Source: Utricularia gibba
Taxonomy: Eukaryota > Streptophyta > Magnoliopsida > Lamiales > Lentibulariaceae
Assembly (NCBI GenBank): GCA_002189035.1
Contig: NEEC01000017.1
Location: 558,001-622,000 of the forward strand
Length of the DNA stretch: 64,000 nucleotides
Direction: 5' to 3'
Below, piece by piece: positions 40,623 to 62,654 of the stretch (within the stretch, counting starts at the first letter, position 1; every line of letters begins with the position of its first letter). The notes beneath the pieces were generated by a model, which was not told the DNA's origin, made no database searches, and was given only the letters and a program-made list of their open reading frames with translations. The translations under genes and the position numbers were made by a program.

Positions 40623-41432
40623 TCAATTTGAACCCCCGATTCCGGCACCAAATCCACTGGCTTGCACAAATGTGCCTCGGAAGTCCCCACTTCCACTTCC
40701 ACCGCCGCCGCCTCCTCCGGCACCGATCGCACCACCAGGACCACCGATCCCTACTCCAGCACCAAACCCACTGCCTTGCCCAAATCCCCCACCAGGAAAT
40801 CCACCTCCACTTCCACCGCCGCCTCCTCCTCCGGCACCGATCGCACCACCAGGACCTCCTAGTCCAACACCTGCACCAAACCCGCTGCCTTGTCCAAATC
40901 CTCCCCCAGGGCCACCACCTCCACTTCCACCACCCCCACCTCCTCCGGCACCGATTCCACCACCTGGACCGCCGGTCCCAATACCAGCACCGAATCCGCT
41001 TCCCTGCCCGAACCCCCCACCGGGACCTCCACCTCCACTTCCACCACCCCCGCCTCCTCCGGCACCGATTCCACCACCTGGGCCGCCGGTCCCAATACCA
41101 GCACCGAATCCGCTTCCCTGCCCGAACCCCCCACCGGGACCTCCACCTCCACTTCCACCACCGCCACCTCCTCCAGCACCTATTCCACCTCCAGGACCAC
41201 CACTACCAATACCACCACCGAATCCGCTACCTTGCCCGAATCCCCCACCAGGGCCTCTGAACACCCCTCCACTTCCGCCACCGCCGGCAGCTCCAAAGCC
41301 ACTTCCTACCCTCCTTGTACCCCATCCGTAACCCCCCCTCCATTCAGATTGAGCAGAAGAAATTGCACTCCAGCTCAGCCCCAGAATTAGAAGCAAACCC
41401 AATGCAGAAATCCTTTTCTGTGAGAACCCCAT
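40623..41432 (-). CDS. Beta-type secreted glycine-rich protein J, intact (269 aa)
   Basis: The start MGFSQKRISALGLLLILGLS (ATG 41430-41432) matches the other beta genes. Upstream in-frame ATGs lie before the likely cap site and were ignored. The signal peptide ends near SAISSA. The linker QSEWRGGYGWGTRRVGSGFG and the block GGVFRGPGGG are beta signatures. Five GFGQGSGFG modules of about 38 residues follow. The beta end is DFRGTFVQASGFGAGIGGSN with TGA at 40623-40625. It is the longest intact array member. Two internal modules (about 40935-41162) are nearly identical 114-bp units. A predicted structural wall protein. Confidence 0.85.
   Translation of the reverse strand: MGFSQKRISALGLLLILGLSWSAISSAQSEWRGGYGWGTRRVGSGFGAAGGGGSGGVFRGPGGGFGQGSGFGGGIGSGGPGGGIGAGGGGGGGSGGGGPGGGFGQGSGFGAGIGTGGPGGGIGAGGGGGGGSGGGGPGGGFGQGSGFGAGIGTGGPGGGIGAGGGGGGGSGGGGPGGGFGQGSGFGAGVGLGGPGGAIGAGGGGGGGSGGGFPGGGFGQGSGFGAGVGIGGPGGAIGAGGGGGGGSGSGDFRGTFVQASGFGAGIGGSN
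40935..41162 (-). repeat. Two nearly identical 114-bp coding modules in J
   Basis: Adjacent 114-bp units encoding GGGFGQGSGFGAGIGTGGPG plus the Gly/Ser spacer differ at only a few bases. This indicates recent in-frame unequal exchange or slippage. Confidence 0.8.
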
Positions 41433-41481
41433 ATCAAAACTCACTTCACTTTGCATGGTCGATATTCCTCCAAGCGCCATA

Positions 41482-41559
41482 TATTTATAGTCCACAGGCA
41501 CACTGGAATAGTCAATGACCTGGGAAAGAGCATTCAATGACACCACACCGCAATGTCAA
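41482..41559 (-). promoter_or_regulatory. Promoter of J: TATA box and two TTGAC cores
   Basis: CTATAAATA at 41482-41490. TTGAC cores at 41511-41515 and 41555-41559 flank GCATTCAATGACACCACAC. Confidence 0.65.
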
Positions 41560-42240
41560 ACTTATCCGCAATCTTACAATTTTGACTTCTAAAGAAAATG
41601 AATGCCGACTTTGGGCTCTGTGAACCATTTGTATCATCAACTAATTTCTCATTGATATTCAATAAAGTGCCTTCCATTTCATCAAGTTATTCAAATTAAA
41701 CACTCAATATGTTAAGCATCGTGATGTTACTGGTTAGCAGAGCAGAAAAAATCTTCTCCCAAAAAATATTATAATCCCCACACGCATCAAATAGAAAAAT
41801 TCATTTTCTTATAAACTGACTAAAGAAGTTTTAAAAATGGCTTCACTCAAACGTCTATAAGTCTCATGAAATAACTTCGGAGGTTGTCTCCTAGCGGCCG
41901 TACCCCTACTGAGTTCAAACCAGAGAGTCAAGATTTCGTGTTCCAATGCTGACTCATGAATCAACTGCCGACATGTGCTACTTTGTCCGAGTTTCATACT
42001 TGGTCATTTGGTGAAGATTAGTTCACATGATGTCATCAAAACCCATATTATAATTATAGTTTACACTCAGTGGTTTCGAGTTTGAACCAACCGATTCATA
42101 TAAATTATAGTTCCATAATTGTAAAAATATCGATTCTTATTCGAAATTGGAATCTTGATGCTGAAATCTAGTTGGAACTGCAATCCCACGTTTTAGTTTG
42201 AGTCACGGTTCATATTCAAATTGACCCCAACACTATCAAA
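41560..42240. other. Conserved beta-gene upstream flank
   Basis: Matches the upstream flanks of L (48960-49330) and Q (62210-63000), and the orphan flank at 57640-58140. No gene found. Confidence 0.6.
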
Positions 42241-48263: not shown

Positions 48264-48844
48264 TCAATTTGAACCCCCGATTCCGGCACCGAATCCGCTG
48301 ACTTGCACAAATGTGCCTCGAAAGTCCCCACCTCCACTTCCACTGCCGCCGCCTCCTCCGGCACCGATCGCACCACCAGGACCGCCTATCCCTACGCCAG
48401 CACCGAACCCACTGCCTTGTCCAAATCCCCCACCAGGAAATCCACCTCCGATTCCACCGCCGCCTCCTCCTCCGGCACCGATCGAACCACCAGGACCTCC
48501 GTTTCCAACACCTGCACCGAATCCACTTCCTTGCCCAAACCCCCCACCGAGACCTCCACCTCCACTCCCGCACCGCCGCCTCCTCCGACACCTATTCCTC
48601 CTCCTGGACCACCACTACCTATACCACCACCGAATCCGCTACCTTGGCCGAAGCCCCCACCAGGGCCACTGAACACGCCTCCACTTCCACCACCAGCAGC
48701 AGCTCCAAAGCCGCTTCCTACCCTCCTTGAACCCCATCCGTAGCCACCCCTCCACTCATATTGAGCAGAACAAATTGCACTCCAGCTCAGCCCCAGAATC
48801 AGAAGCAAACCCAATGCAGAAACCCTTTTCTGTGAGAACCCCAT
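48264..48844 (-). pseudogene. Beta-type glycine-rich protein locus L, one frameshift
   Basis: The start MGFSQKRVSALGLLLILGLS (ATG 48842-48844) is followed by the beta linker QYEWRGGYGWGSRRVGSGFG and GGVFSGPGGG. After one module, a single base is missing near 48570 (CCCGCACCG, against CCCGCCACCG in Q) and the frame drifts to a stop at 48392. The Gly frame continues afterwards with two more modules and the beta end DFRGTFVQVSGFGAGIGGSN, TGA 48264-48266. One base restores a full beta protein of about 190 residues. Its closest intact relative is Q. Confidence 0.75.
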
Positions 48845-48896
48845 ATCAAAAGTCACTCACTTCACTCTGCATGTCGATATTCCTCCAAGCGCCATG

Positions 48897-48953
48897 TATT
48901 TATAGTCCACAGGCACACTCTAATGGTCAATGACACCACACTCGCAATGTCAA
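48897..48953 (-). promoter_or_regulatory. Promoter of L: TATA box and two TTGAC cores
   Basis: CTATAAATA at 48897-48905. TTGAC cores at 48926-48930 and 48949-48953. The CATTCAATG spacer present in J is mostly deleted here, bringing the two cores close together. Confidence 0.6.
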
Positions 48954-49339
48954 ACTAATCGGCAATCTTACAATTTTGACTTCTAAAGAAAATGAATGCC
49001 GACTTTGGGCTCTGTGAACCATTTTTATCACCAATTCATTTCTCATTAATATCAGAAAAAGTTCCATGTATTTCATCTAATTCATCAAATTTAACAATCA
49101 ATAGGTTTAGTAAAGCAACAAAAAACTTGTCCGAAAAATATTCTATTCCCCAACAGGCCTCAAATAAAAAAATCATTTTTTCTTATATAAAAAAGTTTTA
49201 AAAATGGTCTCTCTCAAACGGACAATGTATATTACGTCATATGAAAATAACTTGGGAAGTTGTCTCCTTGGGGCCGTACCCATACCCAGTTCAAACCAGA
49301 GAGTCAAATTTCGTATTACAGGGCTGACAAAAAATTGAA

Positions 49340-60781: not shown

Positions 60782-61363
60782 TCAATTTGAACCCTCGATT
60801 CCGGCACCGAATCCACTGACCTGAACAAATGTGCCTCGGAAGTCACCACCTCCACTTCCACCGCCGCCGCCTCCTCCGGCACCGATCGCACCACCAGGAC
60901 CGCCGATACCTACGCCAGCACCAAACCCACTGCCTTGTCCAAATCCCCCAACAGGAAATCCACCTCCGATTCCACCGCCGCCTCCTCCTCCGGCACCGAT
61001 CGCACCACCAGGACCTCCGCTTCCAACACCTGCACCGAATCCGCTTCCTTGCCCGAACCCCCACCCGAGACCTCCACCTCCACTCCCGCCACCGCCGCCT
61101 CCTCCGGCACCTATTCCTCCTCCTGGACCACCACTACCGATACCACCACCGAATCCGCTGCCCTGGCCGAATCCCCCACCAGGGCCACTGAACACGCCTC
61201 CACTTCCACCAGCAGCAGCAGCTCCAAAGCCGCTTCCTACCCTCCTTGAACCCCATCCGTAACCCCCTCTCCACTCATATTGAGCAGAACAAATCACACT
61301 CCAACTCAGCCCCAGAATTAGAAGCAAACCCAATGCAGAAACCCTTTTCGGTGAGAACCCCAT
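60782..61363 (-). CDS. Beta-type secreted glycine-rich protein Q, intact (193 aa)
   Basis: The start MGFSPKRVSALGLLLILGLS (ATG 61361-61363) is the family start. An in-frame ATG four codons upstream is less likely. The signal peptide ends near VICSA. The beta linker QYEWRGGYGWGSRRVGSGFG and the block GGVFSGPGGG follow. Three GFGQGSGFG modules come next, one of them with a GLGWGFGQ variant. The end is DFRGTFVQVSGFGAGIEGSN with TGA 60782-60784. No frame breaks. A predicted secreted structural wall protein and the closest relative of L. Its upstream flank is interrupted about 140 bp from the ATG by the Pack-MULE-like insertion. Confidence 0.85.
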   Translation of the reverse strand: MGFSPKRVSALGLLLILGLSWSVICSAQYEWRGGYGWGSRRVGSGFGAAAAGGSGGVFSGPGGGFGQGSGFGGGIGSGGPGGGIGAGGGGGGGSGGGGLGWGFGQGSGFGAGVGSGGPGGAIGAGGGGGGGIGGGFPVGGFGQGSGFGAGVGIGGPGGAIGAGGGGGGGSGGGDFRGTFVQVSGFGAGIEGSN

Positions 61364-61415: not shown

Positions 61416-61449
61416 TATTTATACTCCACTGGCACACTCGAATGGTCAA
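61416..61449 (-). promoter_or_regulatory. Promoter of Q: TATA box and proximal TTGAC core
   Basis: TATAAATA at 61416-61423 and TTGAC at 61445-61449. The distal core is altered to CTGAC at 61499-61503, exactly where the MULE-type insertion begins. Confidence 0.65.
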
Positions 61450-61509
61450 TGACATGGTACCCGCCGGGAAAGGGCATCCAATGACACCACACCCGCAATG
61501 TCAGACTAA

Positions 61510-62199
61510 GAAAAAATTAGTGAAATACATCTTTATGTATTTTTTATTTGCAAAATACATCCTTTTGTATTGAGTTAGTAAAATACATCATTTTACATTA
61601 ATTGCATCGGTCGACACTCGCCGCTGATCTCCGCCTTGTAATACTGAATCAAATCTCGGAGTTGGCTCACTTTCGTGAAGTAATGCACACCGTAGACTTC
61701 GACTGACGGGTGCCTCTACGGCCCCCAAAGTTGAGAGAACTCCAGAGGAACATTTCGTGGGTCATCCCAAAAACCAATAGATTGCACGGCGGCGGGCGTC
61801 GCCGGAGAACTTCGGCGGTGTACCTCACTTCCGAAGCAGACATACGGCTACTGACAGCGGTGAAATTCTACGACGCATAGTATAAAAGGGCATGGGCAAC
61901 AGATCCAGGAAGCGACGAATCATCTCGTATGACGGACGTCGCAGGTCTGGCTTAAACATAAAGCCTGGCCGAAGAAGATGATAACCTTCAGCACCGCGTG
62001 GTGCTAGGCGGCAATGGTGGGGCCAGATTTCTGGACCGGCGGGTGAATGACGATGAACTTGGCGGACTTCATTCCAAATGCGACGGAGTCAACAGCAATC
62101 GCAGTCGATTTAGTAAAATTATGTATTTTACTAACTTAATACAAGAAGATGTATTTTGCAAACAAAAAATGCAAAAAGATGTATATCACCAACTCAGCC
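61510..62199. mobile_element. 690-bp Pack-MULE-like element carrying IRX15/DUF579-like fragments
   Basis: The left end (TTAGTGAAATACATCTTTAT...) and the reverse complement of the right end (TTGGTGATATACATCTTTTT...) match over about 85 bp. The element is flanked by the perfect 10-bp direct repeat GTCAGACTAA (61500-61509 and 62200-62209). Long terminal inverted repeats plus a 9-11-bp target duplication are the Mutator-like signature. The interior is GC-rich, unlike the surroundings, and encodes captured gene fragments on the minus strand (next entry). There is no transposase, so it is nonautonomous. Confidence 0.9.
61610..62100 (-). pseudogene. Captured IRX15/IRX15-L-like (DUF579) gene fragments
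   Basis: In broken minus-strand frames the interior reads, in order, SAKFIVIHPPVQKSG, VAHALLYYAS (stop) NFTAVSS, SASEVRYTAEVLRRRPPPCN, LLVFGMTHEMFLWSSLNFGG and VHYFTKVSQLRDLIQYYKAE, then ISGECRP. This follows the order of the N-terminus and DUF579 domain of IRX15-type proteins, Golgi proteins needed for xylan in secondary walls. The methyltransferase GXM family shares the domain. A gap after FGGR, stops and frame changes show it is non-coding now. The assignment is from memory of the family pattern. Confidence 0.8.
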
Positions 62200-62479
62200 G
62201 TCAGACTAATCCGCAGTCTTGCAATTTTCACCTCTAAAGAAAGTCAATGCCGACTTTGGGTCTCTCAACCATTTTAATCATCAACTAATTTCTCATTAAT
62301 ATCTGATAAACTACCATCTAATTCATCAAATTGTACAATCAATAAGTTTAGAAAAGCAACAAAAATCTTCTCCGAAAAATAGTCTACTCCCCAACAAACC
62401 TCAAATAAAAAAAAAATCATTTTTTCTTATATAAACAAGTTTTTAAAAATGGTCTCTCTCAAACGGACAACGCTTACAA

Positions 62480-62654
62480 GGGTTTTTTTAGTTGGTTGAA
62501 TTAGATTTTCTTATACTTAAATTATCTGGATTTGTCTAAACCCAAACATATAGGTGTAAAAATATCCATACTACCTTTATGTAAATATATACCCATATAT
62601 AAGCATATTATATGAGTATAATTATACAAAATAACTTTCATATCAAACAAGCCC
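62480..62654. mobile_element. Possible Tourist-type MITE, 175 bp
   Basis: This stretch is missing from the homologous beta upstream flanks of J and L. It begins GGGTTTTTTTAGTTGG and ends ATCAAACAAGCCC, imperfect inverted ends of the PIF/Harbinger type. It is followed by TAA, with CAA before it as a possible decayed target duplication. Confidence 0.5.

Follow-up and report, generated by a model that had tools for sequence, protein, structure and literature searches.

The window, a 64,000-nucleotide stretch of Utricularia gibba DNA, contains roughly a dozen glycine-rich protein (GRP) genes arranged in tandem on the minus strand (~16.0-61.4 kb), which have a common signal-peptide-like N-terminus and related promoters. 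One of them, gene Q, looks intact because its C-terminal residues are nearly those of the paralog at 41480. Upstream of gene Q lies a 690-bp element, flanked by a target site duplication and bounded by terminal inverted repeats (TIRs), with a fragment of an IRX15/GXM gene between them (Table 1). The initial annotation had placed this insertion about 140 bp upstream of the ATG of an intact gene; the distance is 146 bp, and the element lies ~90 bp upstream of a TATA-like TTTATA at 61418. The upstream flank of gene Q further contains a dispersed repeat (62479-62626) that has ~30 relatives at 70-87% identity and is unrelated to the element.

Table 1. Features of the insertion locus and of the two paralogous empty sites in the window.
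Feature	Position	Strand	Remarks
Gene Q, glycine-rich protein, 193 aa	60782..61363	-	ATG at 61363
Left copy of target site duplication	61500..61509	.	10 bp, GTCAGACTAA; single copy GTCAAACTAA / GTCAAACTTA in the empty paralogs
Pack-MULE element (probable)	61510..62199	.	690 bp; these exact ends are common to the copies
Left TIR	61510..61602	+	GAAAAAATTAG... end; ~30-bp internal sub-repeats; 80-nt matching core 61517-61596
Captured IRX15/GXM (DUF579) fragment	61603..62109	- (sense)	37 bp of 5' flank and codons 1 to ~180 of the donor
58-aa open frame	61667..61843	-	PF21729 match, E=3.9e-11; remnant, no intact gene
Right TIR	62110..62199	-	GGCTGAGTTGG... end; matching core 62113-62192
Right copy of target site duplication	62200..62209	.	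GTCAGACTAA
Paralogous GRP 5' end and promoter, empty site	48711..49225	-	Reads AATGTCAAACTAATC
Second paralogous GRP 5' end and promoter, empty site	41299..41853	-	Reads AATGTCAAACTTATC

The element had been given the range 61500-62209. It is present there, but the element proper covers 61510-62199 and the remainder consists of the two copies of the perfect 10-bp duplication, which agree exactly as the initial annotation described. The TIRs of ~85 bp reported there were recovered as an 80-nt core with 89% complementarity. Within the 1.2 kb around the element this best 80-nt inverted match scored 71/80, against a maximum of 47/80 in 100 first-order Markov shuffles, which rules out a chance inverted repeat. 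The two ends differ in their terminal 7 nt (GAAAAAA versus GGCTGAG), and sub-repeats at a spacing of 28-30 bp occur three times in the left TIR and twice in the right. The interior is GC-rich, as had been noticed (54% versus 41% for the window), and the TIRs have 19% and 26% GC. The 690 bp contain no transposase and the donor gene explains the whole interior, so the element is non-autonomous.

In two GRP paralogs, whose 5' ends lie at about 48.9 and 41.5 kb, the sequence upstream of the ATG runs collinear with that of gene Q across the insertion point and further, and both have the target in single copy without the element. On the plus strand of the window, GTCAGACTAA occurs only as the two copies that flank the element, and the one- or two-base differences from it in the empty sites are paralog divergence. 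The initial annotation had expected a single target copy at empty alleles; a previously empty site is supported here by paralogs, which take the place of alleles, and both carry the target once. Read most simply, these sequences suggest that the insertion is younger than the GRP duplications. A distal TTGAC core had also been assigned to the target, but this did not hold for the copy in the window, which reads GTCAG. The empty paralogs read GTCAA at the insertion site, and TTGAC cores are located at 61445 and 62243.

All 507 bp of the interior align in order with one gene of the same genome (G000:C321, 333740-334315), from 37 bp 5' of its ATG to near codon 180. The IRX15-like donor that the initial annotation supposed in the host genome was thus found. 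Of the 507 ungapped columns, 44 show a substitution between the capture and the C321 gene (8.7% divergence, 91% identity); divergence from the C1 paralog is 20.6%, which excludes the latter as donor. Since 8.7% still separates it from the C321 gene, the exact donor could be a paralog that was lost. Compared with this gene the element has four deletions of 46, 17, 3 and 3 bp, which break the reading frame. Ordered pieces of a xylan gene had been described for the interior; their IRX15/DUF579 origin stands, but they are a single collinear stretch of donor sequence with later deletions, and separate captures are thereby ruled out. The predicted DUF579 match is present as well, since the minus-strand frame in the capture matches Pfam PF21729 (IRX15_IRX15L_GXM) above the curated cut-off; the product of the C321 gene matches the same family with E=4e-46. 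In the assembly used, the frame of the C321 gene is shifted past approximately codon 212, at a C run, which is either an assembly error or a real mutation. Both paralogs closest to the capture, L029 (C321) and L030 (C1), are frame-shifted, by error or as pseudogenes, and full-length members of the IRX15/GXM family without a frame break are encoded on C304 and C4. The captured piece itself, frame-broken as it is, most likely has no protein function.

A search of the genome (100.1 Mb, 516 contigs) detected nine copies of the whole element (L001-L009), the siblings that the initial annotation had anticipated. A search with the interior only gave 11 candidates, all of which were scored, and these were the nine elements and two genes. 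Exact 10-bp duplications flank seven of the nine copies (L001, L002, L003, L005, L006, L007 and L008) and differ per site (GTCAGACTAA, CTCAAAAACC, AGGATGGATC, CTTATCCTCC, TCAAATTCAA, GTTGGGAGAG and AACAAATGTT); where a flanking base matches as well, the repeat extends to 11. L004 has no recognisable target duplication in its flanks, and L009, of which the right end is shortened, lies beside a repeat of ATGAAATTAC that is a probable duplication. Eight copies are 3-7 substitutions apart pairwise over 690 bp. L009 represents an older branch with ~35-40 substitutions over the element, a few of them from the shortened right end, and 4.6% divergence over the interior. At the positions that distinguish L009 from L001, the donor matches L009 12 times and L001 10 times, so that by substitutions neither is clearly closer to it. 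At its left junction L009 retains four bases (ATTC) that match the donor and are absent from the other copies. It also has the 46- and 17-bp gaps, which are therefore older than the split of the copies. L005 and L007 (G000:C414:3441965 and 3438577) are located ~3.4 kb apart, are oppositely oriented and are each flanked by a separate duplication. In L006 (G000:C451:1047412-1048103) a one-base insertion opens a stop-free stretch of 166 codons across the capture, probably by chance. Pfam matches beside some of the eight other insertions include MYB-like, GRAS and cupin domains; these flanks are too few, and their gene models too unresolved, for any claim of an insertion bias near gene 5' ends.

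The genome also contains longer relatives of the element. Four TIR pairs ~5.1 kb apart (C255, C4, C142 and C412) delimit elements with 98.1-99.6% similarity from end to end; a 4.9-kb relative at C304 is ~86% like these four, and a further copy is located at C409. In all there are five to six such relatives. Their ends, GAAAAAATTGG... and ...ACCAACTCAGCC, are those of the short element apart from single bases and show the same two unlike outermost ends, and they are flanked by target duplications of 9-11 bp. In a domain scan, L024 matched the MULE domain PF10551 (5.7e-17), the SWIM zinc finger PF04434 (3.7e-4) and, slightly below the curated cut-off, DBD_Tnp_Mut PF03108 (3.4e-5); L025 matched the MULE domain too. 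Based on these sequences, the MuDR-like 5-kb relatives are likely candidate helpers of the short element. They stay candidates because the DBD_Tnp_Mut match is below its cut-off and their transposase frames are interrupted, in the assembly used, at positions that differ between copies. Three short elements of the same TIR family (L026, L027 and L028), 82-87% alike, have in common an AT-rich interior without similarity to the interior described here. No second capture of a host gene was noticed in the thirteen other TIR-bearing loci, the interiors of which were searched non-exhaustively; L021-L025 have a transposase-type interior, L026-L028 the AT-rich one, and L051-L055 were examined through TIR and helper matches only.

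MULEs generate duplications of 9-11 bp and Pack-MULEs carry gene fragments inside (PMC3310237), with an occupancy peak just upstream of transcription starts (PMC7337890). We propose, with a probability of about 96%, that the element is a Pack-MULE, a non-autonomous Mutator-like transposon, the interior of which is part of a host gene from the IRX15/GXM family. The siblings, the collinear donor, the transposase-bearing relatives and the two empty paralogous sites bear out the gene-capturing MULE of the initial annotation. Against this reading count the TIRs of ~85 bp, which are shorter than the 100-500 bp typical for MULEs (PMC3310237), and the copy without a recognisable duplication (L004). 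The short relatives L026-L028 with their different, AT-rich interior would also suit a MITE or a simple deletion derivative of a MULE that holds no captured host gene and resembles IRX15 spuriously. This has next to no probability, as an IRX15/GXM gene aligns with the complete interior (91% identity, gaps excluded) and PF21729 matches exceed the curated cut-off in 8 of the 9 copies; the donor alignment refutes it. For the Pack-MULE the order of events would be as follows. An ancestral element would have acquired one contiguous 576-bp piece of the C321 gene or of a close, lost relative, comprising the 37 bp of 5' flank and codons 1 to ~180, from which 46, 17, 3 and 3 bp would later have been lost. 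At least nine sites would then have been reached by amplification, for which the same-ended 5-kb MuDR-like elements most likely supplied the transposase. One copy would have entered 146 bp upstream of a GRP ATG after the tandem duplication of the GRP gene.

The element may affect the GRP promoter. In addition to the Pack-MULE reading, it is a tentative possibility, on balance rather unlikely, that gene Q came under altered regulation, either because the insertion shifted the upstream promoter region 700 bp from the core promoter or through promoter activity of the TIRs. The element is close to the ATG and to the TATA-like box, the ancestral promoter is collinear in two paralogs, and Mutator TIRs are known to contain promoters (PMC3310237). 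A change may nevertheless be buffered, since the gene family forms a tandem array. Much less probable is that the nine copies form a functional silencer, with antisense or hairpin small RNAs acting on the donor IRX15/GXM gene, along the lines of the small-RNA regulation that the initial annotation had considered conceivable. Pack-MULEs are said to be potentially regulatory towards parental genes (PMC3310237), and 46 of 484 captured 24-mers and 59 of 487 21-mers occur exactly in the C321 gene, with a longest exact run of 56 nt. However, neither C1 nor the matching parts of the other IRX15/GXM genes retrieved contain any 19-mer of the capture, and the frame of the C321 donor is itself shifted. 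Exact 21-mers in the C321 gene only mean that an effect in trans would probably be limited to this gene. For U. gibba a truncated DCL3, few 24-nt siRNAs and low methylation were reported (PMC8333044), and this lowers the likelihood of the usual 24-nt route. Because gene Q and the captured gene have their sense on the same strand, antisense RNA would need transcription of the plus strand. Even more doubtful is the combination in which 21-22-nt small RNAs from the nine young copies would target the single donor in trans, in a plant for which few 24-nt siRNAs are reported, and one copy would at the same time have rewired a member of the GRP array. Expression of the captured fragment as a new protein-coding gene is slightly less probable still. 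It could draw on the 166-codon stretch of L006, but this stretch relies on the one-base insertion and departs in places from the family frame, and the other copies are broken by the 46- and 17-bp deletions and by stops.

Like the Pack-MULEs of rice, maize, tomato and Arabidopsis (PMC3310237, PMC4858842, PMC7337890), the element has TIRs, a duplication in the range of 9-11 bp, no autonomy, a GC-rich interior from a cellular gene and a site just upstream of a gene, but it differs from them in its short TIRs and two unlike outermost ends. Multi-copy families and a position just upstream of genes have been described for Pack-MULEs (PMC3310237, PMC4858842, PMC7337890). The tomato PM-ZIBP family (PMC3310237) similarly spreads one captured fragment over a multi-copy family (14 copies, nine here) and has repetitive motifs within its TIRs; its donor, in contrast, is a zinc-ion binding protein, and 13 of its 14 copies have tandem TIRs, of which none were seen here. 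A MULE-type insertion upstream of a gene is also described for rice OsPsbS1, where a 2.7-kb region located 0.4 kb upstream is present or absent depending on the line (PMC4178011), whereas the empty sites of the element studied here are paralogous only. A literature search found no paper devoted to Pack-MULEs of U. gibba, which is weak evidence as most subscription papers lay outside it. The Pack-MULE family is genuine, its mechanism is already known and it does not extend the known range. Still, donor, probable helpers, older and younger siblings and nearby empty paralogous sites are all found in one compact plant genome, and with these in hand the order of capture, trimming, burst and insertion becomes readable. 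The filled and empty promoters form a pair that offers a clean test of the effect of a Pack-MULE on a neighbouring gene.
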